Positions 5,359 to 49,740 of a stretch of DNA of 64,000 bases are shown here, in pieces. The DNA is taken from positions 620,001-684,000 of the forward strand of contig NC_088867.1 in assembly GCF_032884065.1 (NCBI RefSeq), read 5' to 3'. The number at the start of each line of letters is the position of its first letter. Positions within the stretch are counted from its first letter, which is position 1. A model generated the notes under the pieces. The model was not told the DNA's origin, searched no databases, and saw only the letters and a list, made by a program, of their open reading frames with translations. The position numbers and the translations under genes are program-made. The stretch comes from Artemia franciscana (Eukaryota; Arthropoda; Branchiopoda; Anostraca; Artemiidae).

Positions 5359-6780
5359 ATGGGAAATCACGCCCTCATATTCAGCGTATCAGAGAACCCG
5401 AAAAATGCAGAATTTCGTATTTTTGGCCAGAAGAAAGATAACGACTGGTTGTTTATTATTTTTTTTTTTCCCTATGGGTAATCCTATTGACCCAGCGGTC
5501 CTAGAATGTCGTAAGAGGGCTTGTTTTAATTGAAATTAAAAGTTCTAGTGATTTTTTTAAGTAATCAAAATATTGAGGGTTAACTAGGCTCCTCCCACAC
5601 TCATTTTCCCAAAGTCACCGAATCAAAATTGTGAAAGAGTCATTCTGTTTAACTTAGTCGAAAACATAATGACTATTTCTCTGGGGACAACTTAATCTCT
5701 CACAGTCCCCGGGGTAGGGGCTGCAAGTTACAAAACTTTTACCAGTGTTTACATGTAGTAATGGTTATCGGGAAGTGTACAGACACTTCCAGAGGGATAT
5801 TTTTGGTTTGGGGGAGGGGAGTTGAGGGGGGGGATATGTGGGAGGATCTTTCAATGGAGGAATTTGTCATGGGGGAAGAGAATTTCAATGAAGAGGGCTC
5901 AGAAATTTCTAGCATTAAAAAAAAAAACAATGAAAAAATAAATACGAAAAGTTTTTTCAACTGAAAGTAAGGATTAGCATTAAAACTTAAAACCAACAGA
6001 TACACATATGAGGGTTTCACCTCCTCGTAACACATTGCTCTTTACGCTAAAGTATTCTTAGTAATTTCAACTATTTATTTTCTGGCCTTTATGATTCAGG
6101 GGTCATTCTTAAGGGATATCGGGACAAAATTTAAGCTGTAGCGTAAAGAGCGAGGTGTTGACGAGGAGGTGAACCCCCTCAAATACATAATAAAAACATA
6201 CAAATATAGAAGTTCATTACGTAAGTCAATTCGTAAGTTACGTATACTTTTAATAATGAAAACGTTCGTAAATAATTTAAAGTTTTAGTTGCCTTTTTAA
6301 GTAACCAAAAAAATCGGAGGGCAACTGTGCCTCCCCCTCCCCTCTCCTTTTTTCTCAATATCTTCCAATTAAAACTATGAGGAAGCCATTTAGCCAAAAA
6401 AAAATAATAAACAAATTTCGTTTTAATTATTTATATTTGGAGAGCCAAAATCGAAACATGTATTAATTCAAAAACGTTCAGAAATTTAATAAAAAACAAG
6501 TTTATTTTAACTGAAAATAAGGAGCGACATTATAACTTAAAATGAACAAAAATTATTCCGTATATGGAAGGGGTTTTTCCTCCTCAAAGCCCCACTCTTT
6601 ACGCTAATGTTTTTTACTGTTTGAAAAAGTAGAGTTAAGAGAAAGAGTCAAACTTTAGGGTAAAGAGCGGGGTGTTGAGGAGGAAAATACCCTTCCATAT
6701 ACGAAGTAATTTCTGTTTGTTTTAAGTTTCAATGTCGCTCCTAACTTTCAGTTAAAAAAACTTTTTTTTTTTATTCAATC
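5359..6780 (+). repeat. Rep-A copy, headless, with terminal hairpin
   Basis: It starts mid-body at an AAATCACGCCCTCATATTCAG block, contains the internal hairpin (about 6005-6190) and ends with the terminal hairpin (6515-6755). Hairpin arm type: TTTTTCCTCCTCAAAGCCCC, with a matching opposite arm. Confidence 0.75.
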
Positions 6781-6799
6781 ACTCATTGAAAGTCAACAT

Positions 6800-7200
6800 T
6801 ATTGCGCATTACAGTCTACGTTAATGATACATAATTAAACTTTGAAAATTTGTTGTTACAAATAACCCGTTTAAACCATTCATTTCACCTTGAAATAAAA
6901 TTGTAGTCCTAGATCTTTGATCTCTTTCTAAACCCAAAATAACCCAACTTATACCTACACCTGTTTACCATAAAATTTCGTAATGTTAATTCCTGGACTA
7001 TTCAGCCTTTTTTACACCCATATCCAGACAAAACACATCAGTATAATTGTTAATTTTATGGATCCAAAAAACAGTCATTAAGTGGCTATTGACACAAAAA
7101 TTCTGCGCCAGGGACAAATGTTACGCAAGATTATGTATGCTAGAATTTTTAAAGTGGACACAGTCGCATCGATCCTTTAGTAGAGTTTAAGCTTCCAAAC
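6800..7200. other. AT-rich DNA upstream of the peptide gene
   Basis: No coding or repeat signal was recognised. This is where the promoter of the peptide gene should lie; no clear TATA box was seen. Confidence 0.4.
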
Positions 7201-7215
7201 CAAACTGTCTTAACT

Positions 7216-7252
7216 ATGAAGAATATATTGTATATACTACTTATTTTTGTTG
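7216..7252 (+). CDS. Exon 1: start codon and signal peptide core
   Basis: The ATG opens twelve codons, MKNILYILLIFV, plus one base, followed by the strong donor GTAAGTTT. This is too short for a standard ORF screen; it was found by its hydrophobic core next to the donor. No clear TATA box or initiator was seen in the 150 bases upstream. Confidence 0.68.
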
Positions 7253-10200
7253 GTAAGTTTATTTTTTATCACAATGTCTGATAAGCTAATTCCAGGATAA
7301 ATTTGGGAAACCAAAATTTATTGATCTATCTGAGTTTTAGCCCTTTTGTAGCAAAGCGAATAGTAGATTTTTAAATCAATCGGGATATTACTATTTAGGG
7401 AAACCTACATATCGTTGCTGTATTGTCTAAAGGTTGTATTTGGCATTTTTACACGTCCGAGATAAAACTGGTAAAATCTTGTCAGAAGGGTAATATATAT
7501 TTTTAATCAAGGTTCCATCACCCTGACCGACAGGGTTAAGTTGATCCTGCCGGCGGGAACAGCTTATCAAACAGTTTGTCAATTATTTTTTAATTTTAAG
7601 AAAATCAGATGGGATCTATAAATGGGAAAGTGGTAATATGTGACTGTGTGCACTGGTGCCCCTGAAAAAAACATTTTGATAAAATTCGTAGTAAGCATTA
7701 ATCAAGGAAAAAAGAATTACACATTGCAACTTCAAACCTCTCAACAGAGGTTTGAATTTTGCCCTTCAGGTAAAATTGTTCAATTATTTTTATTTTAAAG
7801 AAGACTATTTAATAACAAAAATATTTAGTTTTTTCTCATTTTTTATATTTTTTCACGTTGAACTTTTTTGGTCTTGTTGGCCAACAAGCGAAATTCGTGT
7901 ACTAGTTTGGATATATAATTTAAGGTTGAGCTGGACGGAAAATATAATTTAAGGTTGAGCTGATCAAATACTGGCAAAAAAATGAGACGAATTTGAACAT
8001 TCATCATATGCTATTTTTCTTTATTTTAATTTAAAAGGATATCAAGAAAGGTATCCTGCGTATTGCAAGCCCTCAAAACACAAAATATGAGAAGGTTGAT
8101 ATGCCAGCTTTAAATACAAAAACACTTCAAATTTTTCAAAATTCTTTTCCTCGACGGGAAGTGGCGTTATATGAGCATATTATCCCCAAAACCCAAATTT
8201 ATTTATTTACTTCTGTTGTTTGTCAATATTTCATCATCCGAAATTCCTTCCAAATTCGCAACAAGTTGTAAGCAAGATGTTTTTTTTTATTAACTTCCGA
8301 CTTATAGTATACTTAAAACACTTACAAAATACATTGAAAATACCAAAATAAGTGAAGGAGAAGGCATAGTCGTACCTAAGGGCTGCAGTTCTAGAGACAA
8401 ATAGCCCTTAGGATTGCACTGAGTACTATTGTTGCTAGAGCTCAATTTAAACTTTTTTGGACGTTAAGGGACATTATAGCCCCTCACCTCCTAAGACTTT
8501 TTTAACTCCGGCATGCTTGTTATGCATCCTTTTCTACTCATAAGGAAAATAAAGCTTTGTCATTTAATTTAAAATTTTGGCTATTGCTTCTTCTCCCGCA
8601 AAGAAAAAAATTGAAAATCAAATAGTTCGTGGTAACCAACTCTAAAAAACGGAATTTTGATGCCAATAGATGCATCAAAAGAATTAGATTTTAATGCTTA
8701 TTTTAAAAATATAATTTTCGTCAAGTTAAGTCTTACCCATCAAGAATTATGATCCTGAGAGAATTTGCCTTATTTTATAAGAAAATGGGGGAAACGTCTC
8801 TGTAAAAGTCATAGAATCTTAATAAAATCACACCATCAGATTCAGCGTATCAGAGAACCTTATTATAGAGTTTCAAGCTCTTACCTGAAAAAATGTGGAA
8901 TTGTGTATTTTTTGCCCCAAGAAAGATCACAGACACACGTTTGTTTGTTTTTTCCGCCATGGGTGATGGTATCGACCCAGTGTTCTTAGAATGTCATGAC
9001 AGGGCTCTTTCTGACGGAAATTAAAAGTTCTATTTCTCTGTTTAAGTGACCAAAATTTGATAGCTATGTTTTTGAGGATAACTTAATCCCCCACAGTCTC
9101 CGGAGGAGGGGCTGCAAGCTATGAACTTTGCCCATTGTTTACATATAGAATTGGTTATTGGGAAGCATAAAGACGTTTTCACGGGGATTTTTTCTGGTGG
9201 TGCTGGGGGGGGGGGGTTCGTGGATACTTGAGAGGATCTTTCCAAGGAGGAATTTTTCATGAAAGAAGACAATTTCCATGAAGATGGCCTTGGATTTTTC
9301 AGCATTATCTAAAAAACAATTAGAAATTAAATAATAAAGCAAGTTTTTTCAACTAAAATAAAGAGAAACATTAAAACTTAAAACAAACCGAAATTATTAA
9401 ATATGTGAGAGGGTTCGTCCCCTTCTCAATACCTCGCATTTTACATTAAAGTATTTTCAATATTTTCAAAAGAGCTATTTATTCTAACTAAATGGGCTTT
9501 GTGATTCAGGGGTTATTCTTAAAGAATTTGAACACAATTTGAACTTTAGTGTAAAGAGCGACATTTTGATGAGCGGCCGAACCCCTTCATGTACGCAATA
9601 AAAATATACGAATATAGAAGTTCTTTACGTAAGTTAATTTGTAAGTTACGTATATTTATTACTAATAAAAACGTTCATAAATAAAGTTACAAGTCCTAGT
9701 GGCCTTTTTAAGAAAACAAAACAATTGGAGGGCAACTATGCCCCCTCTCCTTCTGTATTTTCTCAAAATCGCCCGATCAGAACTTTGAGAAAGCCATTTA
9801 GCCAAAAAAAGGAAAAATTATATGTAAATATTGTTTTAATTATTCGTGTATGATGAGCCAAAATAAAAACCTGTATTAATTCAATGACGTTCAAAAATTA
9901 AATTAAAAAAAAACAAGGTTTTTTTTTAACTGAAAGTAGGGAGCGACATTAAAACTTAAAATGAACAGAAATCATTTTCACTTACTTCCATATTACAATA
10001 TTTACCTTACTTTCAGTTAAATTACTTTTCATCTATTACTATCTAAATAAAATATTCTAGACTATTGACACATTTTAGGGTACTTGCGTATAATGCCGAT
10101 TAAACTCAAGAAAAGAAGTTAGGTTAATGATAATGATATATTTCAAAATCTGATGACAATATAATACTTTAGTAACAAAATGGTGGAAACTACAACGGAG

Positions 10201-13200
10201 AATTATGGAAAGCAGACCTCCCAGAATTTATTATATTAAATACCCAACCTAACTAACTCTATATATTAAATATTTAATTAGAACATACGTGCATAGTAGT
10301 TTATCTCACTCAAGCTAAGCTAAATGCCTCCGAGTGAACACAGAGAAACCGGTTTTAAACAGATTTCTTTGAGGTGGGACGTACAAGATCAGACTTGATA
10401 GCGTCACTCTTCATCTTTGTGTGACCGGATATTTTGAAGATTTTGAATACATTTTGCCGGGGTATTGCCTTTAAATAATTTTTCTGCTTTCATTGTTCTT
10501 GTAGGAGGAACCGCAAAACTTTATTTTATCGGTTAATTCTCTTTTTAGGCGATCATTTGTATTTTTATATATCCTACGGGGTTTTAAAGTCACTTTCTCC
10601 AAAGGAGAACCTCAAATGCCATATCAATTATTACCTAAACTATTTAGTATGAACTAAGTCAGTTATATTACAAGAAATAAAAATCAATGCCATGAGCATA
10701 AATGTTGTTGTCTTTTTCTGTCGGACACCTAACACCATTATCTGAACGCAAAAATAATTAAGGGTGTACTTTTTGGTGTATTTTAACAGATATCCTTACT
10801 CAAACTAAAATCATAAAGGGAAAAGCTGCTAATCCCGTGAATGCTTTGCACAAAATCTTATTTTGCCACATTTATATAAAATCTAGCAATATATCTCGTA
10901 ATTAATTTTCTGTTGCATAGTTTCTTTTAGATCTCTGATGGCTCAGTTAATGGAGCGTTGCAGTTACTTTTCTGACATTATGAATATTCATGTTTTGATT
11001 AAGTATTCTTGATAGTTAATATTGCAATTTTTATTTCAGTTGCTTTTGCCTCAGCGTTTCCTGCAAAAGAAAGAATGAGACGACAAGTTATTGTCGGTAA
11101 GTTTTATCTCTATTTCTGAATAAATAGCCTAGGTTGACACAGCCGTGTTGTCTGGCAAAAATGACCGTTTTTTTCTGTCATTCTTTTTTTTATTTATATT
11201 TTTTATTTATTCTTTTTATTTTAATTTCATTCTTTTATAGATAGATAGGTGTATTTAAAAAAACCATGGGCCATATACACACACAAATATAAATAAATAA
11301 CAAACAAGCAAGGAAATTAACAACAGTACGAATTACAAACACGCACAAAAAACAGAATTCAACGCAAAAAGTGCCCAATCTAACAACAAAAGAAAATAGT
11401 CATATAAAACTTTTTCTTCTTATCAAGGATTTATCTATATATACTCCCACTCGAAATATTGTGGTTGGGTTATTATTTTGTAGAATACCCGGAAGCATCA
11501 AATTAGTGCCATGCAAATAAGTTTCCCGTAATTCCAAGAGCCCCGGGCATTTCCGGAGAAAATGATCCGAAGTCTTCATCATCATCATTACAAAGGGGAC
11601 AAACATACCGCCTATCAGGACCAGCTATCATTTTATTTTTGTCGAAAGTTTTTTGCCTGTTCTGGATTTTATATTACTAGACCTTGCGTAACGCATTGAA
11701 ACATCTCAAATGAACGTTAAAAAAATGTGTGATTTTTTCGACCAATACCCTTGTTTCATCTTTTAAACTGAATCACATTCACTGGGGGGGCTGATATTTT
11801 TGGTGCATCCAGTGTATGCAAATTATTTAGTGTCAGGAGAGAAAAATGCAGTAGTTTACACTTAGGTTTAAAAGAGTACATTCTGTAAAACACAATTTCA
11901 GAACCAAGTCTTGTACTTTTATTCGTTGCATCCATTTTGCTTCGTTTGAGGCATTTATTCATAAAAAAAATTATTACAAAAAATAACCCAGACAAGGAAA
12001 AAAAAAACAAAGGAATACTTAATGTCAATAAACAAGTATATTCCCGGGGCCCCACAGCTGATGTTTTTTGCGTTGATGTTTTTTTACTTTTTACAGTTAT
12101 AAAAATAATTTTTAAACTTACTAGTCGCTATTATGAGTTTTGGTATTCAAAATGAATATTTTGCAAAAGTTTTGGTTGTCTTGGAAAACTTCATTGTTAA
12201 AGCCTCAGCCTAAATAGTTTTGTTAGATAGTATCCAGTTTACTCTAAAAGTCTTGTGCTAAGCTTCTTTTCTGGGAAATAGTGAGTTTAAGAACAATATT
12301 CAAATAAACTAAATTATTAAAATTAAAGTTACATGAAAGAAATTATTTAAAATCACAATTTTCATTTTTTTTTTAAACGCAAAGAACTTTGCACAAGTAA
12401 CACCGAAAGGAGGGGGTCGCCACCTGTCAAAAGTTTTGAAAACAGTGGAAGTGTGCCACACGTGGTTGAAGTATGCCGCTCATGGCCCAAAGAGGTCCAT
12501 ATGGATCATAGAGGTGTGGCGGAGGTAGTGATCCACGCGTAGCATCATCTTTTAGACTGGGTCGAATTCACTGGAGGGGGGAGTTTACCTTTTTGGCGCA
12601 GCAGAATGGGTACCACTCCAAAAGTTACACTAGGTGGTGGAGAATATTTGACTCCTCAGCATATTCTTAATAACAATTGGACTTGTTTTTCTTGTTTCTT
12701 ACCTTTTTTTTTACATAAAAAAACATTTATATAACCTTCATTACCTCACTTGGCGTTAGCAAACGGATAGCTAAAGACAGTAGATTTCGCAATAACTTGT
12801 CCAAAACGTGTTGGCAAGGAAATACCTATAACACACTTGACCTTCTTTAAAGAAGACGTGATCAATTTTAAATGTTCCATAGAGACTTTAAGATGGGTTT
12901 CGTTCGTAAATAAAGGAAGATAGGAAACACAGTTTTTAATTAATTTAATTAACGACCATTAAAGAGGATATATGTTTTAAAAATTTGTGTTCGATATTTT
13001 CTCTAATTTTCTTCAGGTATGTTTTGCTGTAAGAACTTAAATCTAAACTTTTGCATCAACGCTACCGTTCTTTTGACTATAATTCAAATTATACATAGTG
13101 TATATGTTGGATTGGATGAAATGTGTTGAGGCACCACTAAATCGTTTGGTTCATTTTTTATTCTGTATTATTATTATTTATTTTTTTATTTGGTTTCATT

Positions 13201-14408
13201 TTATTGGATTTTTTTATTTTTTATTTGTATCCATCCCTACTGTTGAAAATGTCAATTTTTTTCACTTTCCTTGTTCCAGTAGGCTACCTCTAATTTAGCT
13301 GAAATTCATTTTGAGTTTACTCAAAAGCTTGGTCCTAACTCTTGAAATTTTGGAATAAATCTGATAGTTACAGAAAGATCTGATAGAAAGAAATGATTTT
13401 CTTACAGATATCGGTTACAGTTTTGAAAATCCATAATAAAGATTTCAGTACTAAAGTTGACGAAGCCAATTTGGCCATTTTGACAGCACTGATACCCTCA
13501 GCATAGTGGAAATCCAATGTTTTTCAGTCTTACAAAACTATAACCAGATGTAAAGGACTCAACTTTTTATCCACTATCTTTGGGACTATAGTTTCTTCTC
13601 TTGACTGTGTTTGGTCATCTGGACCCTGACCATCGTTAAACATTAAAATGTTTTAGTAGGAGACACCTGCAATTTGATGCGCTTACGCTGACTTAAAAAG
13701 GGTAGTAAATTTCATAAAGAACTCTTGAGTTTGAGCTGATGACTTCTAAAACTTTATCTGGACCTGAAATTAGACCATAAAATATTACTGTACTCTTCGA
13801 CTGCACTCTGCAGTCGCACTCGACTGTACAACTGCACTCGACTGTAATCTTCGCCGATGCGTATTCTGGACCCTCATCGTCATTGAACAGTCAAACTTTT
13901 TGACAGGAGATATACACAAGATTTTATACACCGACGATATACACTGATGATTTTATACAAGATTTTAAACTTTGCAGGTATAAAATGATTTAAAGGACAT
14001 TAAATCTTCACGAAGAGCAAAGGAATCTAAGCTAACAACTGCTAAAAATTAATCTGGACTTGGACTTAGACCATTAAATATTACTTTACTCTTGGACTCT
14101 TCAATGTAATTACTTGAATTACATTTTCCCAGACACATTCTTCTTTTGGACGGCAACAGACCCTATACTGAAACCAAATTCGACTCGTTACTGTTTTGAC
14201 GACTGGCTAATTGAAAGTCTCGGATTATCTACAAAAAGTAATGAATATAATTTATTTTAAAGTTCCTGGCTCTGGCGGGCTCAGACCTGGTTTTGGTGGA
14301 CTTCAACCCGGCTTTGGGGGACTTGGATCTAGTATCGTCAGACCAGGATTTGGAACAGGAATCGTGAGACCAGGATTTGTTTCTAGACCAACAGTCATTC
14401 TTGGATGA
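7216..14408 (+). CDS. Secreted Gly/Pro-rich peptide precursor, isoform A (join 7216-7252, 11040-11096, 14263-14408)
   Basis: Three exons give a 79-residue precursor. Seen: residues 1-18 (MKNILYILLIFVVAFASA) form a short hydrophobic signal peptide ending in an A-x-A motif. Residues 19-27 are a propeptide ending R-M-R-R, a furin-type site. The predicted mature peptide (28-79, 52 residues) starts with Gln, which could cyclise. It carries RPGFGG, QPGFGG and two further RPGF blocks and ends in Leu-Gly, so C-terminal amidation is possible. It has no cysteine. All introns are GT-AG and interrupt codons after base 1. Known: processed Gly/Pro/Arg-rich secreted peptides in arthropods are often antimicrobial, as with penaeidin-like or attacin-like precursors, but no specific family is recognised. 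A cuticle or egg-shell peptide is an alternative. No canonical AATAAA lies just after the stop, only a variant AATATA near 14501. The exon structure is persuasive; the function is inference. Confidence 0.72.
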
Positions 14409-17400
14409 ATAAGAAAATTTTGTGAATACTGATGAATTAGAATATTTCGAAGCGTGATGAAAATAGAAGGCTGATTTTATATTATATTATTCATTGAAAA
14501 AATTAATATATTTTATTTTGTCAAACTGTTTTACTTTTAAAGTTGGATTTTCCTGAATGAAATGAAAGACGTTATAAATCGGATTAATGTTAATTTTTTT
14601 ATGGCACTTGGTATTAACCAAGTGACATATAGCAATCGCAAATTCTGTCGGTCTGTCGGTCCCGGTTTTGCTACTTTAGGCACTTCCAGGTAAACTAGGA
14701 AGATGAAATTCGGCAGGCGTATCAGGGACCGGACCATATTAAATTAGAAATAGTCGTTTTCCCGATTTGACCATCTGGGGGGGCGGAGGGAGTGGGGGGC
14801 CCGTTAATTCATAATAAATAGAAAAATTGAAGTATTTTTAACTTACGAACGGTTGATCAGATCTTAATGAAATTTGATATTTAGAAGGATATCGTGTCCC
14901 AGAGCTTTTATTTTAAATCCAGACCAGATTTGGTGACATTGGTGGGGGGATTGGGAGGGGGAAACCTAAAATCTTGGAAACACTTAGAGTGGAGGGATCG
15001 GGATGAAACTTGATGGGAAAAATAAGCACAAGTCCTAGATACATGATTGAAATAACCGTAATGGATCCGCTCTCTTTGGGGTAGTTGGGGGAGGGGTGTT
15101 TCTAAGAATTAGAAAAAATGAAGTATTTTTAACTTACGAACGGGTTATCGGATCTCAATGAAATTTGATATTTAGAAGAATATCGTGTCTCAGAGCTCTT
15201 ATTTAAATCCCGACCGGATCTAGTGACATTGGGGGGGGGGGGGGTTGGGAGGGCGAAACCTAAAACTTGGAAGACACTTAGAGTGCAGGGATCGGGATGA
15301 AACTTGGTGGGAAAAACAAGCACAAGTCTTAGATACATGATTGATATAACCGGAATGGATCCGCTCTCTTTGGGGTAGTTGGGGGGGGGGGTAATTCTAA
15401 AAAATTAGAAAAAATAAGGTATTTTTAACTTACGAACGGTGATCAGATCTCATTGAAATTTGATATTTAGAAGGATATCGTGTCTCAGAGCTCTTATTTT
15501 AAATCCAGAACAGATCTGGTGACATTGGGGGGGGGGGTTGGGAGGGTGAAGCCTAAAACTTGGAAAACACTTAGAGTGGAGGGATCGGAATGAAACTTGG
15601 TAGGAAAAATAAGCACAAGTCCTAGATACATGATTGACATAACCAGAACGGACCCGCTCTCTTTGGGGTAGCCGGGGGGGGGGGCTAATTCTGAAAAAAT
15701 GAGGTATTTTTAACTTACGAACGGCTGATCGAATCTCAATAAAATTTGATACTTAGAAGGATATCGTGTCTCAGAGCTCTTATTCTAAATCCCGACCGGA
15801 TCTTGTGACATTGGGGGATGGGAGTTGGAAGGGGTAACCCTAAAATCTTGGAAAACACTTAGAGTGGAGGGATCAGGATGAAACTTGGTGGGAAAAATAA
15901 ACACAAGTCCTAGATACATGATTGACATAACCGGAACGGATCCGCTTTCTTTGGGGTAGTTGGGGGGGGGGTTTAATTCTGAAAAATTATAAAAAATGAG
16001 ATATTTTTAACTTACGAACGGGTGATCAGATGTCAATGAACTCTGATATTTGAAGGATATCGTGTCTCAGAGCTCTTACTTTAAATCCCAAACAGATCTA
16101 ATGACATTGGAGGGGGAGGTGGGAGGTGGGAACCTAAAACTTGGAAACCACTTGGAGTGGAGGGGTCGGGGGGGTTAATTCTGAAAAATTAGAAAAAATG
16201 AGTTATTTTTAACTTACGAACGGGTGACCGGATCTCAAAGAAATTTGATATTTAGAAGGATACCGTGTCTCAAAGCTCTTATTTTAAATCCTGAACAGAT
16301 CTGGTGACGTTGGGGGGAGAGTTGGGAGGGGGAAACCTAAAACTTGGGAAACACTTAGAGTGGAGGGATCGGGATAAACCTTGGTGGGAAAAATAAGCAC
16401 AAGTCCTAGATACATGATTGACGTAACCGTAACGGATCCGCTCTCTTTGGGGTAGTTGGGGGGGGGGGGGGTTACTTCTAAGAATTAGAAAAAATGAAGT
16501 ATTTTTAACTTACGAACGGGTTATCGGATCTCAATGAAATTTGATATTTAGAAGGATATCGTGTCTCAGAGATCTTATTTTAAATCCCGACCGGATCTGG
16601 TGACACGGGGGGAGGAGTTAGGAGGAGGAAACCTAAAACTTGGAAAACACTTAGAGTGGAGTGATCGGGATGAAACTTGGTGAAAAAAATTAAGCACAAG
16701 TCCTAGATACATGATTGACATAACTGGAACGGATCCGCTCTCTTTGGGGTAGTTGGGGAGGGGGTTAATTCTGAAAAATTAGAAAAAATGAGATATTTTT
16801 AACTTACGAACCGGTGATCAGATCTCAATGAAATTTGATATTTAGAAGGAAATCGTGTCTCGAAGCTCTTATTTTAAGTCCTGACCAGATCTGGTGACAT
16901 TGGGGGAGTTTGGAGTGGGGGAACCTAAAATCATGGAAAACGCTTAGATTGGAGGGATCGGGATGAAACTTTGTGGGAAAAATAAGCAGAAGTCTCAGAT
17001 ACGTGATTTACATAATTGGAACAGATCCGGTCTATTGGGGGGGGAGTTAATTCTGAAAAATAAGAAAAAATGACGAATTTCTAACTTACGAAGGAGTGAT
17101 CGGATCTTCATGAAACTTCATATTTAGAAGTGACTCAGATCGCTTATTTTAAATCTCAACCGGATCTAGCGTAATTGGGAGGGGCAGTTGAGGGGAACCG
17201 GAAATCTTAGAAAATACTTAAAGCGGTGATATCAGGACGAAACTGAATGGGAAGAATAAAAACCTGTCTAAGACACGTGACTGACATAATCGGACCGGAT
17301 CTGCTGTCTTTGGTGGAGTTGGGGGGGGGGTAATTTTGAAATCGAGGTATTTGTAACTTACAAAAGGGTGACCAGATCTTAATGAAATTTGGTATTTAGA

Positions 17401-19479
17401 AGGGTCTTGTGCTTTAAAGCACTAATTTTAAATTCCGACTAGATCCTCTTACTTTGGGGGGAGTTGGAGGGAAAACCGGAATTCTTGGAAAACGTGAAAA
17501 TTGGGGTATTTTTATTTTACGAATAGGTGTTCGGATCTTAATGAAATTTGATATTTAGAAGGAATTTATGTCTCAGAGCTCTTATTTCAAATCCCGACCA
17601 GATCATTTGACATTGGGGGGAGTTGGAGGGAGAAATCTTGGAAAACACTTGGAGTGGAGGAACCGGGATGAAGCTTGGTGGATAGAACAAGCAAATGTCC
17701 TTGATGCGTGATTGACGGAACCGTACTGGATTCGCTCTCTTTGGTTGAGTTGGGGGGAGGTGTTCAGTGATTTGGCGAGTTTGGTGCTTCTGGACGTGCT
17801 AGGACGATGAAAATGCGTAGGCGCGTCAGGGAGCTGCACAAATTGACTAGATAAAGTCGTTTTCCCAGATTCGACCATCTGGGGGGCTAAAGGGAGAGGA
17901 AAAATTAGAAAAAATTAGGTATTTATAACATACGAGTTCGTGATCGGATCTTAATTAATTTTGATATTTAGAAGGACGTCGTGACACAGAGCTCTTATTT
18001 TAAATCCTGACCGGCATTAAGCCTCTTATTTTCCTTTTAAATCAATCTATTGATTCATAGAATTTTGCTAGAGCTCATACCATATGATCTCTTGGCTCTT
18101 AGCTCTTCTTGCCTCGTCACAAGTGCCATATGAGCTCTTAGCTCTTGTTTTTCTGGTGAAGAAAAATAAAACAAAGCAAGAAGCAAACTCTCCTTCAGAA
18201 TAGCTGATCAGTTTTGAAAAACAAATACAAATTAAAAACTGATTTGTCTTTTTTTTTTACTCAAGAAATAGGAAATTATCTCGGATCAAAGCAAAAAGTG
18301 ATATTAAAACTTAAAACAAAAACACACTACTCCATACTGCCGCCTTCTCAGCCCCCCGTTCTATACATTGCTCCTGATTTGAATCCATCGGTTCTTTTGT
18401 TAGTTGTTCTTCAATAATTAGGGCAAAAAGTCAAACTTTAGCGTACAGAGAGGGGGAATGATGATCATGCAATTTTCAGGCTTAATCTCTATGATTGAAT
18501 AATTAAGGAAATTCTTTGAAAACATTTACATACTAAGAATTATCTTTATGACAACAATGTAAGGTTGCCCAAATCATAATTGCCCTCTTTAGGGTAACGT
18601 AGTAAAGAACCAGCCCCAGTGTATAGTAATCGAAAATTCATCTGAAAATTCAACAACACATCTTGGAAAAGAGCCTGTCAAGTAGGGAAGAATCACCACT
18701 TGAGCCTGATTCAGGAATGGTAACTATTATTTCGATTACTGTTAATGATTAAAGTTCGTCAAAAAAACAAATTTATGAGACTTGAATACTCTGAAACTGA
18801 CACAGATAGTGTCGGATCGAAAAGGTGACTGAACCGTTAGAATCATCATAGCCAGTCATCCCATGAAGGATAATTACAGTCCCCCATCTTGAGTAACAAG
18901 GAAAATAATTTTTTTGCAAGGGAAGCAGTGATGTGTCTACTTTTTTTACTGCTTTGTTTTAGTCACAGCTAGTGGAGTGCCGAAATATCATAAAGCGATA
19001 TTTAGAGGCTTTTTTGGAAGAAAATTGCCATATTTACGTGCGGTTTGTAAGTAAAAAAAACATAAAATTAGAAAATGACATATAATTTTTGACAAAAATT
19101 GCATCTTCATATACAAAAATGATATAACAAAAATATATTTTGACAAGGAACCGATACTTGATTCGCTATAGTTTGTTCTTTACTAGATTAAATTTAAAAA
19201 ATTAACTTTATCAACTGAAAGTAAGGAACAACATTAAAATTCAGAAATAATCAGAAATTAATTCCATGCATGAGAGGAACTGACCCTGTCCCAACCCTCG
19301 TTCTGTATGCAAAAGCCTAAAATTTCTGTATGCATCTCATTAAAATTCAACGGCCCATGTGTTTGAACTTTCTTTCTTAAAAAATTGTTACAAAAAGGAA
19401 AACTTTCTTACTCGTTTGATTTAAAAAGTCAAATCGTCCTGCTCGCTATTCCTGATAAAACAGGTTATTTTATTATATA

Positions 19480-19556
<77 letters not shown>

Positions 19557-22500
19557 AGGCTTATGGGGGTAATGTAATTTTTAGTTAACCTTATTCCTTA
19601 AAATGACTTTGTTAAACCAAGGCTCTCCTATATTTGGTAGAAGTCTAATACTCCTTCCTTCAGCTCCCTTTTTTAAAATTTAATTTTAATATTCGTAAAA
19701 CTGCTCCAAGACTTTGGCGTTTACTTATCTATTGATAGTGATTTATGTTCGTTTTATACTTGAATTACTGTTTAACATTATTTTGGCTCATTTAAGGCAT
19801 TACTCAGCTCTTTATTTTGCTCTGAAGACCTTATTTTGTTCTAAATTTTTTTTCAGTTAATTTTTTTTTAACTGATCCATTTTTATTGGATAATAAAAGG
19901 AACATTTGTAAAGCTTTTTTGGTTTTTCACTTTGAAAATTTGGATTTTGGTTTGGTATTCGTATTCTGAACAAAACTTTGAAATTTTCAGATTCAGATAC
20001 AGATTAGTTTTAATAATACTTTAATCAGTTGTAATAATTGCTTTATTTAATTAAACATTCACTCACAACTACATTTTAAAAATAGATTTTGGCTTAAAAT
20101 CCATATTAATGTAGTCCTTTAGAACAACCCTGTTTTGGAAACATTACACTGTTAATTACATCGCAAAGTGGCAGTCCTTCATTTGCCAGGCAGCATGAAC
20201 TAAAATTGCCTCCAAACATTACAAACAAACTCACTCAATCATAACTTAAATCTCAATCTCAACGACAGCAAACAAGATCTGTTATAACTGTCAAAAATAA
20301 TATAGAAATAATAAATAATTATCTATTTTCTGGCAGTTTTATCCAATATCATTATAAATTTGTTACTATTACCTAACGCTTGTTACTCAGATTTTTTTTC
20401 ATTCATCTTAAATGATGCAAGACTATGGTAGTTCATTTAAAATTTTAAAATATCAACTTAAAAATCTGACTGAATACATGGCGTACGCAAAATAACCAAC
20501 AGGGTCCTATCTCGTGATACACCCTGACGCGTTTCAGCCGCATAAAAAAATCCTGAAAAGTAATTTGTTAGAAGAGAATGAAAGTGTTTGTAAACAAAAA
20601 CTGAGCAATTACAAACTCCCAAACTATCTGGAAAAAATAAAGAATCTGTTTCGTTAATTAGGTTTCATGCTTTTTTATTTATTTTGTTAATCATATTTGT
20701 AAAGATTTATGTGTCGCCGTGCAGATAAGAAAGGAGTATCGAATATGGGACTGTATCAGCAAAAAAATTAAGAAGATGAAGCATCTTAATAGGCAAAAAA
20801 GTACTTAAGTTTTTTTTAATATTCCCAGATTTCTAGAAATTTGTAGGCCAACTGCTGTAGAGTGTTGTTTGTAAGAAAAACTTTCATCTATTCACAAACC
20901 AAGATACTTTACAAATCCATTTTCTGGTCTTGAATGATTTTCTGAATGATGCCTCTAGTCGTTACGCGAACTGTGAAAGAAGGCTGAAGCTTTCCTACTC
21001 GTTAAAATAGTAAAACGTGAAATTTTTTAATGTTTACAGTTATCTTGTTAGCATCCATACACAAATAAGCACGCTCCATCCTATGTTGCTGTCGATAAAC
21101 CAGGACCTCAAAAATACTTCTACCACAGCCAATGACTGCCATCTGTAAAACCCTGTGAAAATTTTTCAGAACTTGAATCTAAACCTGGGCGTGACACTAA
21201 AGTCTGAGGGCACAAATTGCAGCAAAAAGTGGAAGGGGGAGGTCGAAAATAAACTACAAGGCTCTAATGTGAATAATAAAAAAAATAGGGCCAAGAATCG
21301 AGCCTTGGAACACTCCGCGACTCCTTGTCTTCGAAGATATATGAATATTCCCAATTATAATTACTCTGTTTTCTAAATAATTTTCAAACCATCAAAATAG
21401 ATGGTTTAAAAATTCACCTCAATATGGTCAAACTTACCAAGCAGGATATCATGGGAAATACAATCAAACACCTTCCTTGTATCCAAAAGTATCGCAATAG
21501 GAATTTTACTCTGATCCATCCCTTTTTTTTGTCAAGAGGGATAGCGAAGCAAAAGCTCCTTCTGAAGTGCGGCCGGGACGAAAGCCAAATTGCCTTGAAT
21601 TCAGAAAACCCTTGGCCTGTAATTAGATATATCTGAATGATTGCATCCTTTATAAGCAGTAATTACCCTCACTTTGTTTCGATCATCTGGAAAAGTGCTG
21701 TGTTTCGTACGAAAGGATAAACAGCAAAGTAAGAGATTCAGCCAGAGCTTGAACACTTTTCTTGACAATTTTGGCACTAATTGCCTCATATCCCGATAAA
21801 GAACTACTTTTAAGATTCTTAATTATATCCACAACATCATAATCAGAAACTGTAACAAACCCCTTTGAATTCATCCACGAAGGAGGAAAAAAGCTTAAGG
21901 CTGTGACGAGAAATTGGAACTTAATCTATTGTTTCCCTTCTAACTTCACTAAAAGATGCTAGAAGCCCTAGAATTTCACTTTAATTCTCCATAGCTACAC
22001 CCTTTTAGATCAGTTTTTTAGCATAAAACTTTTAGAACCAGGTTTTAAAACTGGTTAATAACACTCACATTTTCTTACCATAGTTCCGTCAAATCGGAAA
22101 TTTGTTTTGAAAAAAATTTTCTTTTCATTTCTTGAAATTTTACGAAGCAAGTTATTATATCATTTATATCCTTCTAAAGCATATTTCGTTGGTCCACATT
22201 CTCATCTTCTTGTTTATACAATCAAGAAGGCTTTTAGAAACCAACGGACGCCGGGAAAAAACATCCTGGAGGTGTGGACTACACTCTTATCACCGCATTC
22301 TTCCAGTCTTTACACAAGAATTCAATTAAACAGCTGAAAAGCAGTATCCACTTTATTTTCTTTATTCAATGACGACCAATCTATTTTACCCACTTCCTCT
22401 TTGAAAAGTTTTATATTGTCATCTGGTAAATTCAGAAATTTCAAATTTTGGTTAATTTGGTGCCTTAAAATTTCATGTTTCTTGAACTGGATACGGTGTG

Positions 22501-25500
22501 AAAATGGGTTAATGGTCAGACATATCTGAAACTAAGACAGAAGCAGAAGTTGGGAAACTTGAACAAAAACTATTGTCAAGTATCGTATGTCTTTTGAATA
22601 AATTTAATAATAGTTATACTGTATCTATACGACCTTGAACGATTTGGTATGTGGAACTTTATAACCATTATGCCCAAATGGGGTAATGGTCAGACGTAGC
22701 TGAAACTAAAACAGAAGCAAAAGTTCGGAAGCTTGAAAAAAATATTGTCAATTATCGTATGTCATTTGAATAATTTTAATAAGTTGTTCTGTGCAACATT
22801 GAACTATTTCGTAGGTGAAAAGTCATCCAATTAGAGGATAGAAAATCTGCATAATCCTTAGGCTTTTATAGGGTTGAAACCGTTCTAAAAACGTCACATT
22901 AAAACCTTGAATGTTGACAAGTTCTAATTGACATAATGTAAGACATTCCTCCCCAATATAGCCAGAAAGTTTCAACTTAATCCCCTTAGCCGTACCTGAG
23001 ATACCGAAGATATACCCAATTATTATTATATACCCAATTAATATACAAAGGGTTTTTGATTTAGTTCAAATGCCCCTCAACACGGCCTGAAAGTTTTGAT
23101 TTATTACTCTCAGCTGTTCCAGAGACACTGCACATGCGTCCTTATGACAATCTGAATGCACATGGTGTCGTTCGATTTAGTTCAACGTCCCCCTCAACAT
23201 CCTCTGAAAGCTTGAGCTTAATAAAGTTAGTCATTACTTTGAAATGACAGTTATGCCCTTTGACCGACAAACTTTGACTCACAGAGTGTCTTTTGATTTA
23301 GTTCAACATCCCGAGCAACATGCTATAAAAGCTCTAAAGTAATACCCCTAGCTGTTCTTGGGATATTACATTGATGTCCTTTGACAAGCAGGATACACAG
23401 AGCGACTTTGATTTAGCTATACATCCTCTTCGAACTTCTCGGAAAGTTTCAACTTAATACCCTATTCTTTTTCCTGAGATTTTACGTCTAAAATAGTTTG
23501 ACAACCTGGATGCACTTCAACTCTTTTGATCTGGTTCAAAGGTTGTATTGGTGTTGCTAGAAGTAACAGTAGTAGAAGAAGAAGAAGAAGTATCAGCGGC
23601 GGCAGTAGTAGTTGAAGCAGCAGTAACAGTCTCAGAAAACAGTCGAAATCGCAATAGTAGTAGGAGTAGTACTAGCAGTCATAAGTAGTCGCGGTCGCAA
23701 TTAGTCACAGTCACAAGTAGACAGATTTGCCAATAATTGCAGTTGTAAATGACCAGAACAACAACCAGTCCTAGTCTCTGCTGTTATCCCAAGTAGTTGT
23801 TATCCCAAGTAGTGACAGTCACAGTCACAAGTATTCGCAGTAGGAATTGCAAGTGTCGAAGTCGCACTCTCAAATAGTTGTAATCACAAGTGGTCACAGT
23901 CACAGTTTTAAGTAGTCTCAGTCAAAATTAGTCGCAGTTAGTTGTAGTCACAGTCACAAGTAGTCACAGTCATAATAGTCACGGTCGTAACCGCACGTAT
24001 TCACAGTCGTAAACGGTCACAGTAGTAGAAGTACAAATCGTAGCAGTAGTATTAGTAGTTGTTGCAGCAGATTCAGTCGTACCAGTACTATTTGGTCTAG
24101 TCATAGCAGTTGTAGAAGTTGTAGTTGTTGTTATAAAGGTATTCGTAGTTGTAGTATTTATAGGAGATTTAGTAGTAGTTGTAGTAAGTTTAGTCGTAAT
24201 ATCGGTAGTTGTAGCAGTAGTAACTGTCATAGTAGTCATCCTAGACTTAGCTTTAATAGTAGTAGTAGTCTTAAGAGTAGGAGTCATAGTAGTAGCAGTC
24301 GCACCAGTAGTAGTCGTAATAGTAGTGGTAGTTGTAAAATTAGGAGTCGTAGTTAGTGTAGTCTTAGAAGCAGTAGCTCTAGTAGCAGTACTAGTTGTAG
24401 CAGTAGCAGTTGTAAAAGTACCAATAGTAGTAGTATTAGTCGCACTAGGAGTCGTCGTAGTAGTAGTAGTTGCAGCATTAGCAGTCATAATAGTTGTAGT
24501 CATGGTATTAGTAGTTATAGTACTATTATTCTTAGTGGTAGTAGTCATTTTAGTAGTAGTTCTTATAGTAGTATGTGTGGTAGTAATAGTCGCCGTAGTG
24601 TTGATAGGAACATAGTGTGTTTTGGTTTGTTCAAAATTCCTTTTAATATGCCCTGAAAGTCTTAACTTTAATACCCTAAGCCGTTCCTAGGATATTTCTA
24701 ATAGGCCTGTTTGGGTAAATGGGTGACATGAGTAAGTTGCATAATTTAGAGCCCTCGCCCGAAAAACTGCTGCGAGAACCATATCTGGAAGCATAAAAGT
24801 GGCGTGGGATGGGGCCTATTACCCTCCAATCATTTTTGGCTCTTAAAAAGAGCACTATAACTTTTCACTTTCAATCAAATGAGGATTGTTCCAAAGTTCT
24901 ATAACTCCTTCCATATGCACTAGCATAGATAAAAAATAATGCATTGAAGCCTAATCGCTTCTTACTTAGGCAGATCTATTTCGCTACCTTTGATATATCT
25001 TTGCTTTGTTCTCTTTGCTTATTTTAAGTTTTACATCTAATGTAATCTATGTCCTGGTCGTATTAGGTGTTTAATTTACTGTTTTCTTTTTTAATATCAT
25101 GTTACCAAAATTTTTTATTTTTGTTATTGTCGATAGTAGTTCTGAACTGTTCATCATTACACACAGGCCAAATGCTGTACATTGAACTAAATACCTCATA
25201 AAACAACAGTAAAAACTTGAATTACATAAAAGACTTTCGCCAAAACGAAATATGGAAACCGTCCACATAAGATTTGCAGAAAGTTCGGTAATGGCTTCTT
25301 CTCTTCAACACAGCAACAAAGAGTTAAAATTGAAATCCGACATGTACGAAAAGTATGGGCACCACGAAAAATAAAATTAGAATATAATTATGTAAAAATA
25401 AACAATGATAATAATAAACGTATATAGTTCTTTACGAGGTGTTATTTGTATGGTAAGCTCTAATTTAATTTTACAGGTCGTCAGCATATTGGTTTGCCCA

Positions 25501-25628
25501 ATATTGGTTTACCCAATTTCAGCCGACTTACTACCAATTTTGGCTTCCCCAGTTTTGGTGGACTTGGCAATATAAATTTACCATCAGGCAATATTAGACC
25601 GTCTTTTGGCGGATTGAAACTTGGCTAA
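7216..25628 (+). CDS. Same peptide gene, isoforms B and C ending in the distal terminal exon
   Basis: Exons 1 and 2 can also join the terminal exon at 25477-25628 (81 residues), or pass through the cassette 18963-19046 first (109 residues). Both joins keep frame, because every internal junction leaves one base of a codon. Isoform B reads RRQVIVGRQHIGLPNIGLPN after the furin site. Isoform C inserts 28 residues and makes a single Cys at the 18963-19046/25477 junction. The terminal exon encodes tandem IGLPN blocks, then FGG motifs, and ends in Lys-Leu-Gly, much as isoform A ends in Ile-Leu-Gly. That shared ending suggests the two terminal exons are ancient duplicates. Alternatively, exons 18963-19046 and 25477-25628 belong to a second gene with its own unseen first exon. 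Splicing is inferred from signals and phase only. Confidence 0.6.
8628..9990 (+). repeat. Rep-A copy in intron 1 of the peptide gene, 3' truncated
   Basis: The head is degraded (TCAAATAGTTCGTGGTAACC). The body and internal hairpin region follow; the copy stops after the first ~65 nt of the terminal hairpin, so the hairpin cannot fold. Confidence 0.72.
9991..11030. other. Intron 1 DNA with no recognised feature
   Basis: AT-rich, with stops in all frames. No exon-like window with matching phase was found. Confidence 0.4.
11040..11096 (+). CDS. Exon 2: end of signal peptide, propeptide and furin site
   Basis: A pyrimidine-rich tract ending TTTATTTCAG precedes 57 nt that complete a Val codon and encode AFASAFPAKERMRRQVIV. 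The donor is GTAAGTTT, as at exon 1. The length is a multiple of three and both junctions have the same phase, so the exon could be skipped without loss of frame, but the furin site would then be lost. Confidence 0.7.
11230..11640 (-). pseudogene. LINE 3' fragment with CPLC...HFLRKCP C-terminal motif
   Basis: The minus strand reads DRRYVCPLCNDDDEDF, then after one frameshift DHFLRKCPGLLELRETYL and a further ~40 residues to a stop near 11400. The spaced Cys/His pattern is the C-terminal knuckle of many LINE ORF2 proteins. About 170 nt of untranslated DNA and a simple-repeat end follow. It lies in the second intron of the peptide gene. Confidence 0.6.
11641..14262. other. Intron 2 DNA
   Basis: Mostly AT-rich. 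A GC-richer patch at 12400-12650 holds no usable frame. Short ACTGCACTC/GACTGTA repeats occur at 13795-13850. Nothing else was recognised. Confidence 0.4.
14263..14408 (+). CDS. Exon 3: proximal terminal exon with RPGF repeats
   Basis: The acceptor is TTTATTTTAAAG. The exon completes a Val codon and encodes PGSGGLRPGFGG, LQPGFGG, SSIVRPGFGTG and IVRPGFVSRPTVILG before TGA. The Arg-Pro-Gly-Phe block occurs four times counting its Gln-Pro variant. The ~290-bp satellite starts about 350 nt downstream. Confidence 0.7.
14760..18010. repeat. Satellite array, about 12 units of ~290 bp
   Basis: The phrase ACTTACGAACGG recurs at about 14841, 15132, 15428, 15713, 16010, 16212, 16508, 16802, 17084 and 17356, with two degenerate registers after. 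Spacing is 270-297 bp except one ~202-bp unit. Each unit also carries AGAAGGATATCGTGTCTCAG, a G-run near GGTGACATT, GGATCGGGATGAAACTTGG and ACAAGTCCTAGATACATGAT. Units near the 3' edge are the most diverged, as usual for array ends. Confidence 0.92.
18215..18470. repeat. Degenerate Rep-A terminal hairpin
   Basis: Contains GTGATATTAAAACTTAAAAC and, about 150 nt on, CAAACTTTAGCGTACAGAG, the two inner parts of the hairpin; the outer right arm is lost. Confidence 0.45.
18963..19046 (+). CDS. Exon 4: 84-nt in-frame cassette encoding a cationic segment
   Basis: A T-rich tract ending TTTGTTTTAG precedes an open 84-nt stretch, and GTAAGT follows. It encodes VTASGVPKYHKAIFRGFFGR and then KLPYLRAV, with seven Lys/Arg and one aromatic-rich patch. 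The phase matches exons 2 and 5. An alternative donor (GTTTGT, three bases upstream) would break frame into exon 5. It is smaller and less repetitive than the terminal exons, so it could also be a chance splice-flanked ORF. Confidence 0.5.
19195..19345. repeat. Half of a degenerate Rep-A terminal hairpin
   Basis: CAACTGAAAGTAAGGAACAA and ACATTAAAATTCAGAAATAA represent the left arm only. Confidence 0.4.
19483..19553. repeat. (TA)n microsatellite
   Basis: About 35 TA units, one interruption at the left edge, within the intron between exons 4 and 5. Confidence 0.95.
19554..20890. other. Intron DNA with no recognised feature
   Basis: AT-rich. The right edge may include unrecognisable downstream parts of the LINE relic that follows. 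Confidence 0.35.
20900..22860 (-). pseudogene. Decayed non-LTR retrotransposon (CR1/L2-like) ORF2 fragment
   Basis: Reading the minus strand from 22860 down, several frames together show an endonuclease C-terminus (SDMSDH then PIF), a linker with KIDWSSLNKENKVDTAFQLF, and reverse-transcriptase blocks: LKSSSLSGYEAISAKIVKKS, a DISNYRP motif, AILLDTRKVFDCISHDILL, and the box GVFQGSILGPIFF. A later ANKITVN resembles the RT thumb entry. Frameshifts and stops separate the blocks, so it is dead. The order is that of a LINE ORF2 with apurinic-type endonuclease and RT. It sits antisense within the last intron of the peptide gene. Confidence 0.75.
22497..22860. repeat. 174-bp tandem duplication inside the LINE relic
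   Basis: TTAATGGTCAGACATATCTG at ~22510 recurs with small changes at ~22684, with the intervening DNA repeated. On the minus strand both copies encode the SDH-P end of the endonuclease domain, so the duplication followed LINE insertion. Confidence 0.7.
22910..24700. repeat. ~117-bp satellite, five to six diverged units, split by a trinucleotide array
   Basis: GATTTAGTTCAA-type unit starts lie near 23059, 23173, 23296, 23410 and 23528. Each is followed by a CCCTCAACA...CTGAAAG phrase, a TTAATACCC...GTTCCTGAGATA phrase and a TGACAA...TGCAC phrase. The fifth unit breaks at about 23545 and the pattern resumes at about 24620, after the array. Confidence 0.75.
23560..24608. repeat. ~1-kb GTA/GTN trinucleotide array
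   Basis: The 5' part (23560-23990) is dominated by CAGTCACAAGTAGT-like phrases; the 3' part (23990-24608) is nearly pure GTAGTN. The reading phase is kept over hundreds of bases, which opens long Thr-rich and Val-rich frames that are not genes. Confidence 0.95.
24701..25470. other. Intron DNA with a diverged Rep-A fragment
   Basis: 24795-24890 resembles the reverse Rep-A body (GGCCTATTACCCTCCAATCA and the AAAGAGCACTATAAC region). The rest is AT-rich and featureless. Confidence 0.4.
25477..25628 (+). CDS. Exon 5: distal terminal exon with IGLPN and FGG motifs
   Basis: The acceptor is TTAATTTTACAG. The frame encodes RQHIGLPNIGLPNFSRL, TTNFGFPSFGGLGN and INLPSGNIRPSFGGLKLG, then TAA. The composition (Gly, Asn, Pro, Phe, Leu; no acidic residue) matches exon 3 in style, but the repeats differ. 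Confidence 0.65.
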
Positions 25629-25686
25629 TCGCTGCTGTTTCTTCGAATCCTTGTTATTGATTTTTATATTCTGTTAATTTAATCAT

Positions 25687-25692
25687 AATAAA
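25687..25692 (+). terminator. Polyadenylation signal of the distal terminal exon
   Basis: A canonical AATAAA lies 58 nt after the TAA of exon 5 and is followed by a T/GT-rich stretch (TTGACTTGTGAGTTGTC) about 40 nt later, as expected for a cleavage and polyadenylation site. Confidence 0.65.
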
Positions 25693-36449: not shown

Positions 36450-37388
36450 ATGGAACAAGAATTACCAACCGAATATATGTATTTTTGGGCCGTACTCTGT
36501 GTTGTAATTTCTTTCTTAATTTGTATCATTGTTCTATTCTGGAATTGTTTCTTAATAAAAAATTTAAAGCTGGAATCAGATAATCTTCTTATACTGAATA
36601 AAATCATTATACTGCAGTGCGTACTTACTAGAGTGGTATGTATTATTATATTATTATTTCATGTGCCTCGTGTAGTGTTTATCGAGTGCCCCATATGGTA
36701 CTGTGAACTATCAGCCCGTGTATTTAGTGCCTCATTTTTAACTATACAGACTATGTTAATTTTTAGCAATTTAACTCGTCTTGTTATGCTTTATGGTAAA
36801 GAAAAAATACAAGATTGGCCGGAAATCCGAATCGCAGGAACGGCATTAGCAATGACATTTGCAGTTATAACACCAAATATTATACAAGTCATTGACGTTT
36901 CGTCAAAACCTACTTTTATCTATTGCAATCGTGACACAATTTCAAGAGGAAAGGGCAACTCCACTCAAACTGGGCTTACAGTCTTGAACGTAGCGCCATC
37001 TTTCATAGTATTATTCTTAGATATATTTTCACTTAAAAGGGACGAAAAGTTTGATTCTCATGATATACATAAACCTAAAAGCATAAAAATATTAAAAGCT
37101 CACGTTGTGAATACACTTTTAGATGTAATTCTCCTTGTCCCTTTCCGTGTCCTAGCCGAAAATATTGCAACGGATCAACTCAACACAAAAGAGCAATTAG
37201 TTGTGATGAATTTCGTTTCATACGCTTCTTTGTTATTCTTTATTGGTCTACCGCCATTATTATATATTATTTTTAATGAAAATCTTCGAAGGAATTTGAA
37301 ATGTTTTTGCCTAGAGAAAGGAATTTTAATTATCAACGCTTTTCGGAAAAATTTATCAAGAAATAGGGCAATTGTGGCCCCTGAATAA
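36450..37388 (+). CDS. Divergent rhodopsin-like (class A) 7TM receptor, intronless, orphan
   Basis: 312 residues from the ATG at 36450; an in-frame GTG six codons upstream is not needed. Seven hydrophobic segments lie near residues 11-36, 46-70, 86-115, 127-148, 174-195, 214-237 and 248-274. Class A landmarks: N32 (1.50), C85 (3.25) with C159 in loop 2 for the usual disulfide, R110 exactly 25 residues after C85 (3.50), P183 (5.50), P231 (6.50), P269 and Y272 (7.50, 7.53), then an amphipathic FNENLRRNLKCFC helix 8 with possible palmitoylated Cys. Departures: DRY is TRL, TM2 lacks the usual Asp, TM4 lacks Trp, and NPxxY is PPLLY. N170 is a glycosylation sequon in loop 2. The N-terminus is only about ten residues, which suits a small ligand or a chemosensory role. 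An AATAAA overlaps the stop codon. It is intact, so probably functional; the ligand is unknown. A multi-exon gene with a missed 5' exon (the ORF is open through a CACAG at 36428-36432) cannot be excluded. Confidence 0.8.
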   Translation: MEQELPTEYMYFWAVLCVVISFLICIIVLFWNCFLIKNLKLESDNLLILNKIIILQCVLTRVVCIIILLFHVPRVVFIECPIWYCELSARVFSASFLTIQTMLIFSNLTRLVMLYGKEKIQDWPEIRIAGTALAMTFAVITPNIIQVIDVSSKPTFIYCNRDTISRGKGNSTQTGLTVLNVAPSFIVLFLDIFSLKRDEKFDSHDIHKPKSIKILKAHVVNTLLDVILLVPFRVLAENIATDQLNTKEQLVVMNFVSYASLLFFIGLPPLLYIIFNENLRRNLKCFCLEKGILIINAFRKNLSRNRAIVAPE

Positions 37389-48229: not shown

Positions 48230-49740
48230 GTAGTATTAATTTATTATCCAAAAGAACTAACAGAGACAAAATCAATCGGTAGCACACCAAAAGCGTCGCT
48301 TGCGAGGGTGTGCTACCAACAAGAAATAGAAGAGAAAAACAAAGAACAAAAAAAAACAGTGAGATAATCTATAATAAGCAGAAAGGTGAAACCGTGTACC
48401 AAGAAAAAAAACTTACATAAATAATTTATTCACACTAAAACAACATAATATCATGATCCTGAAGCGAAAAAAACAAACAAACAAAAAACAAACAAAAAAC
48501 AATAAACAATTATTGCCAATATTAAATCCATCAATCTAAATCTATTTCAAAGGTGTACCTACAAAGCAACCCCAAACGCAGCTCGGTTTTGAATTAATTA
48601 ATGGGCAATTATTTGGTGCCTAGAACAGGCTTATTCCACAGCTTAGCCCCTGAATAAATAACTGAAAAAGCAGTCCTACTTGAAACTAGGCGAGGAACCT
48701 CAATATCTCCACTTGTTCGAGTTCTGTGACCATGAACATTAGAATCTTCCCGGAAAATTCCTATGAAACATTCTGGAACACGCCCATAATAGTACTTATA
48801 CATAAAAACCAGTGTATAAAAATCACGCAATCAGGCTGCAGGCATTATATTAATCATACTGTACATTGACCTGACCGAACCCAGGTTCCCTATTCCACAA
48901 AATGATCTAATGGCATTATTCTGCAGTATGCGGATTGGGTGAAGCATTGAGGGGAATGTCCCAGGCCATACAGACAAACAATACAAATTATACGTATGAA
49001 TTTAGTAGAGAAAAATATAATAACCGTAAAACGTTTGAAGGAAAAAAGTGTTTTAATTTATGGATAATTCTTAAATTCCACGATAGTATTCTACTTATAG
49101 CTTTTACATGGTACTTAAATGATGAAATTTTGCCAATAATAATCCCAAGGTGCTTAACGAAGCTTGACTTCTTAACAATTGAAGCTATCTTAGAATCGTG
49201 AAAGACAACAAAATTTGACTTATTTATATTTGTGTAAAGCCGGTTTATCTTCAACCAAAGACATGTCACAGTCATTACTGCATTAACTGTTGAGGTAAGT
49301 TGTTGTTCAGTTGAAGCAACTGTTTGTAACTGTTGATCACACATCAATGTTGCATTATCAGCAAATAAGGGTGTAGTGATCGTGGATCCCGAAGGTGCAG
49401 GATCCACTAGATCCCTAATTCTAGAAGTAGTTGCAACAGCATTTGGCAGATCATTAATAAAAATCTAAAAAAAAGAGTAGAATCTAACACAGAGTCCTGG
49501 GGGATACCAAATTTAACGAGACTATTACTTGAAGAAAATCCATTAATGTGAACATACTGCTCTCTATTTTGGAGGTAATCACAGAGCAAAGCCAAAGTAG
49601 CCCTTCTTAGTCCATGAAATTCACATTTTTGAAGCAGTAATTCGTGGTCAACAGTGTCAAATGCCTTAATCAAATCACGAAACAGACCAGCTACTCTAAA
49701 CTTATTGTCAAGAGCTCTATTGATTACAGAGTAATCATTC
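48230..49740 (-). pseudogene. Decayed non-LTR retrotransposon ORF2 C-terminal half with 3' end
   Basis: The minus strand shows ALDNKFRVAGLFRDLIKAFD followed by TVDHELLLQKCEFHGLRRA, a palm motif FGIPQDSVLDSTLFF, the catalytic region degraded to FADNATLM (normally FADDT-like), WLKINRLYTNINKSNFVVF, KHLGIIIG, and near 48700 a C-terminal segment ending GAKLWNKPV. The catalytic Asp pair is broken and frames shift, so it is inactive. The 3' region holds a stem-loop and ends in an ACT-repeat tail at about 48230. A Rep-A copy abuts or truncates its upstream end at about 49738. Clade CR1/L2/Rex-like is inferred from motif style. Confidence 0.78.
48278..48317 (-). other. 3' stem-loop of the LINE relic
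   Basis: GGTAGCACACC and GGTGTGCTACC form a perfect 11-bp stem around an 18-nt loop, about 50 nt before the ACT-rich tail of the LINE. In L2/CR1-type elements a 3' hairpin is what the reverse transcriptase recognises, so this is a plausible recognition hairpin. Confidence 0.6.

Follow-up and report, generated by a model that had tools for sequence, protein, structure and literature searches.

We propose that this Artemia franciscana locus is the downstream one of two secreted-peptide genes in tandem, and that a single 5′ module there serves two alternative, related terminal exons (A and B), giving rise to two processed peptides whose likeliest role is of a defence type. We put the probability of this reading at about 0.6. 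The window, that is, the whole 64,000-nt stretch of DNA analysed, comprises bases 620001-684000 of a 60.9-Mb contig (C5) in a 1.27-Gb genome, and with 100 kb on either side it forms the 264-kb neighbourhood referred to below. The features are as follows, numbered from the first base of the window unless prefixed with C5.

7087-7206, plus strand: proximal 5′ flank, putative promoter and 5′ UTR, conserved with the sister gene
7216-7252, plus strand: exon 1, MKNILYILLIFV, signal peptide core, phase-1 donor GTAAGT
11040-11096, plus strand: exon 2, VAFASA + FPAKERMRR + QVIV; end of the signal peptide, short propeptide and RMRR site
14263-14408, plus strand: terminal exon A, Gly/Pro-rich, 48 residues including the split first codon, ending ...TVILG and stop
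18963-19046, plus strand: optional cassette of the original prediction, in frame, without support as an exon
25477-25628, plus strand: terminal exon B, Gly/Leu/Asn/Pro-rich, 50 residues including the split first codon, ending ...GGLKLG and stop
25687-25692, plus strand: poly(A) signal of B, AATAAA, at +59 from the B stop
C5:604741-604777, plus strand: sister exon 1, 37 nt, MKIIFYIFLVIA
C5:611333-611389, plus strand: sister exon 2, 57 nt, encoding VYTSALPIKERTKRQVSFA
C5:617851-617999, plus strand: sister terminal exon T0, 149 nt, Gly-ending

The gene and its upstream sister

What supports the exons of this gene? Every join in the original prediction gives an open reading frame in phase 1: exons 1 and 2 continue in frame into A, into B, or through the cassette into B, and the precursors are 79 residues long via A and 81 via B. 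As predicted, both terminal exons close on Leu-Gly followed by a stop codon. Gly accounts for 15 of the 48 residues in A and 11 of the 50 in B, and the charge difference (K+R minus D+E) is +4 in each. A holds four [LV][RQ]PGF units.

Splice sites were scored with approximate matrices. On this scale, of the 6397 GTs on both strands, the exon 1 donor ranks 38th and the exon 2 donor 26th, and among 7336 AGs the acceptors of B, exon 2, the cassette and A rank 321st, 435th, 1130th and 2565th, respectively; the acceptor of A is thus poor, with 2565 of 7336 AGs equal or better. Exon 2 is the top internal exon on both strands of the window, if narrowly (16.4, against 16.2 and 16.0 for the next), among open internal exons in phase 1 that have strong sites and a length of 30-200 nt. 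A second in-frame acceptor at 11055, 15 nt downstream, gives a shorter form of exon 2 with a better score (18.9), and its use would leave a shorter signal peptide. Exon-2-like exons with R-x-[RK]-R occur in 2 of 40 simulated 64-kb sequences, twice on the real plus strand and once on the real minus strand; exon-1-like exons occur once on the plus strand and not on the minus strand, the mean in simulations being 0.25. Taken by themselves, these chance tests on the window exons are modest. Self-repeats make up 41% of the window and overlap none of the exons; ARAGORN detects no tRNA gene in the window, and nothing there matches Rfam at the gathering score.

Stronger support comes from a second gene that we found upstream, on the same strand and outside the window, in which exons 1 and 2 are conserved together with about 120 bp of the 5′ flank. 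Its exon 1 lies 22.5 kb upstream of that of the window gene, its span of C5:604741-617999 corresponds to window positions -15259 to -2001, and its precursor reads MKIIFYIFLVIAVYTSALPIKERTKR followed by QVSFAGPKIAGL...SVQAG. The two genes have a common plan, consisting of a signal exon of 37 nt, a 57-nt exon in which R-x-[KR]-R is followed by Gln-Val, and a terminal exon of roughly 150 nt that ends in Gly and stop; the lengths and phases of exons 1 and 2 are identical. None of 20000 shuffles equalled the exon 2 protein similarity. The 5′ flanks align by blastn at 62.5% over 120 bp (E 6e-7 for the 264-kb region), and flank and exon 1 together reach a match score of 41, as compared with a maximum of 18 in 500 shuffles. 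Over the 31 codons of exons 1 and 2, dN is 0.71 and dS, which is near saturation, is 2.17, a pattern such as purifying selection might leave. Because the sister keeps the 5′ flank, exon 1 and exon 2, the window exons 1 and 2 are supported independently of splice scores, and the signal-plus-propeptide module that the original prediction took to be shared now has an independent paralogue behind it. In the sister gene we saw no second terminal exon resembling A.

Are there further members of the family? When exon 2, A, B and T0 were used as protein queries against the 1.27-Gb genome, each matched its own place only; such searches missed the known sister exons, and what they exclude is therefore limited to close copies. 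Eight places in the genome matched a DNA pattern for exon 2, two of them being the two genes, and the reversed control pattern matched three. At the other six places the motif is not, by eye, read in an open frame, and at five of them Ser precedes Gln, also by eye. One match, C4:26769390-26769418 (minus strand), reads K-E-R-L-F-R-Q, the K being immediately preceded by a stop codon; it may be a product of chance or a relic. A search for relatives in viral contigs gave 26 pattern matches, none of which was confirmed.

Elsewhere in the window, 36450-37388 holds an unbroken 312-codon frame with many hydrophobic segments, which by eye resembles a seven-helix receptor and does not match Pfam above cut-off. 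At 48988-49748 (minus strand) lie fragments of a broken LINE-like reverse transcriptase, with an RVT_1 match below cut-off.

A probable single 5′ module for two terminal exons

How many 5′ modules serve these terminal exons? We slid the modules of both genes over the 264 kb in overlapping scan windows (1758 on the plus strand, and 1759 per strand in a second run). Against each other the two genes score 41 with promoter plus exon 1 as the module and 27 with exon 2. Elsewhere on both strands of the 264 kb, the best scores are 20 and 18 by the better of the two queries and 15 and 13 by the lower, so that for both modules the two genes alone stand out. The terminal exons, on the other hand, number three against these two 5′ modules: T0 upstream, and A and B here, where one 5′ module is in frame with two terminal coding exons. 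With two 5′ modules and three terminal exons, two of them behind the single module of the window gene, the simplest interpretation is a single gene whose two terminal exons are alternatives.

The terminal exons themselves are short, several comparisons were made among them, and the p-values that follow are uncorrected. A and B resemble each other as proteins (p 0.004-0.009), and they have in common an exact 14-mer that was matched in none of 150 codon-shuffled pairs and in 1 of 150 synonym-permuted pairs. B likewise resembles T0 (p about 0.0025), and this likeness extends past the stop codon into the 3′ flank, with a score of 20 that was not attained in 1000 shuffles (maximum 19). The T0-B match is marginal in part, since the 3′ flank alone gives p 0.05 and shuffles in the separate T0-A comparison went as high as 22. 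The protein similarity of A and T0 is not significant (p about 0.17). Relatedness of the terminal exons thus has statistical support from these comparisons, and A and B, which had been described as unrelated-looking, are better regarded as probable diverged duplicates. Most likely B is the counterpart of T0, and A arose by duplication of a terminal exon.

It does not follow that A is used. B alone may be functional, with A a diverged or dying duplicate that normal transcripts skip. The acceptor of A scores 2.5, as compared with 7.5 for B and 11.9 for T0; in the 400 nt following the A stop codon there is no AATAAA, only variants such as TATAAA at +165; and it is B, not significantly A, that resembles T0. 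However, the frame of A is intact and its Pro-Gly-Phe repeat cores differ synonymously only; among all pairs of the four units, differences at codon positions 1, 2 and 3 number 7, 3 and 15. The first AATAAA of the sister gene is also late, at +315, with a TATAAA at +122. A weak acceptor and variant poly(A) signals fit minority or regulated use of A, and fit a decaying A equally well. We consider it unlikely that B alone is functional.

Alternatively, B could be part of a separate, third gene whose own first exon or exons have diverged and possibly include the cassette, in which case A and B would be the ends of neighbouring genes and not products of alternative splicing. The genes do stand in tandem, the cassette starts with VTASGVP, vaguely like the end of the signal part of exon 2, and the 6.4 kb from cassette to B is close to the 6.5 kb from exon 2 to T0 in the sister gene. 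Yet neither strand between A and B yielded a third 5′ module, whether a copy of promoter plus exon 1 or of exon 2: in the 78 scan windows per strand that cover this interval, the best scores are 16 for promoter plus exon 1 and 14 for exon 2, and a relaxed plus-strand scan for a hydrophobic ATG exon returned four poor rows from three ATGs. The separate first exon for the distal pair that the original prediction had named as evidence against itself was thus sought in the A-B interval and not found. Both the likeness of the cassette to exon 2 (p 0.55) and its splice scores are at chance level. These searches could miss a first exon for B that has strongly diverged. The interval also contains tandem repeats of an approximately 293-bp unit at 14812-18032 (ending at about 18030), and this array may have displaced a first exon. 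On balance a third gene appears rather improbable, and one gene with two terminal exons is the reading we carry forward.

The original prediction further allowed the cassette as an optional exon and likened the locus to a combinatorial one. Candidates of the cassette's grade number 22 on the plus strand and 27 on the minus strand, with 10-19 on five simulated strands; its splice score is therefore what chance provides, and "combinatorial" is too strong a word for a locus whose optional cassette is without support. Within intron 1, 8171-8267 is an open signal-peptide-like exon, MSILSPKPKFIYLLLLFVNISSSEIPSKFATS, with the phase-1 donor GTAAGC. That this segment, the cassette or both are also used is very improbable, for although both are open and phase-compatible, the cassette is at chance level and in the sister gene we saw nothing corresponding to either.

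Predicted processing and possible function

We propose that a single transcript unit begins near 7200, with a single promoter followed by one exon for the signal and one for the propeptide. Exon 2 would be spliced either to A, where the transcript would end, or past A to B, yielding two precursors with an identical N-terminus. Cleavage is predicted after ASA by signal peptidase and after RMRR by a furin-like protease. The resulting peptides, of about 52 residues from A and about 54 from B, would begin with QVIV; their N-terminal Gln would likely be cyclised to pyroglutamate, and their C-terminal Gly could serve as an amide donor. The ends are Leu-Gly in A, Leu-Gly in B and Ala-Gly in T0, and hence the feature common to the family is the final Gly.

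What might such peptides do? A defence-type extracellular peptide is the likeliest first guess, drawn solely from size, charge and Gly content; a structural or regulatory peptide is also conceivable. AfRgly1 of the same species is a glycine-rich antimicrobial peptide (PMC12387859), and the predicted products are similar to such peptides in being small and secreted, with Gly of at least about 20% and a net positive charge, which is a likeness of composition. The features of that class (a signal peptide, small size, Gly of roughly 20% or more, cationic character) are all found here, secretion being judged by eye.

More tentatively, the locus may represent a new family of secreted defence peptides in which the terminal exon alone was duplicated to give a second effector, so that one inducible promoter and one secretion and processing module feed two peptides, with the weak upstream acceptor as a regulated switch; we regard this fuller scenario as doubtful. 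Loose NF-κB-like sites number 41 in the window, four of them in 5500-15000, and there are none in the 600 bp before exon 1.

Relation to known systems

The layout itself is known. According to PMC4237046, the Locusta myosuppressin gene joins coding exons 1+2 or 1+3 to yield two different mature peptides, and the Zootermopsis CNMa gene and termite calcitonin have a similar alternative-exon layout. The window gene would resemble myosuppressin and CNMa in having first coding exons in common and later coding exons as alternatives. Those genes encode short amidated neuropeptides, whereas the peptides predicted here are Gly/Pro-rich, about 52-54 residues long and without a family match. Similarly, the 5′ exons of CALCA (calcitonin/CGRP) are common to two terminal regions, each carrying a poly(A) site of its own, and are spliced to one or the other (PMC9181031). 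The present gene would be like CALCA in this choice between two terminal regions behind common 5′ exons; unlike the window gene, CALCA is a vertebrate hormone gene, and no sequence relation was found or is claimed. Among the matches listed from the open-licence literature, in the parts available, there was no defence-peptide gene with such a layout, which is not proof of absence, and six peptide strings looked for in the open-licence literature did not occur there.

The original prediction had recognised no named family, and searches of Pfam, NCBIfam and solved structures agree, giving no credible match (the best were a Pericardin repeat at E 5.4 and one transporter chain at E 0.071). Since the layout is known from locust myosuppressin and calcitonin/CGRP, we view the locus as an unnamed peptide family using a known layout. 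It adds a secreted peptide family without a name in the libraries searched, and one whose function is simple to test. If both ends are used, the gene would be a compact case of peptide diversification through terminal-exon duplication, beside a sister in which one ending was found, and the pair would offer a natural comparison of gene duplication with exon duplication within one small family.
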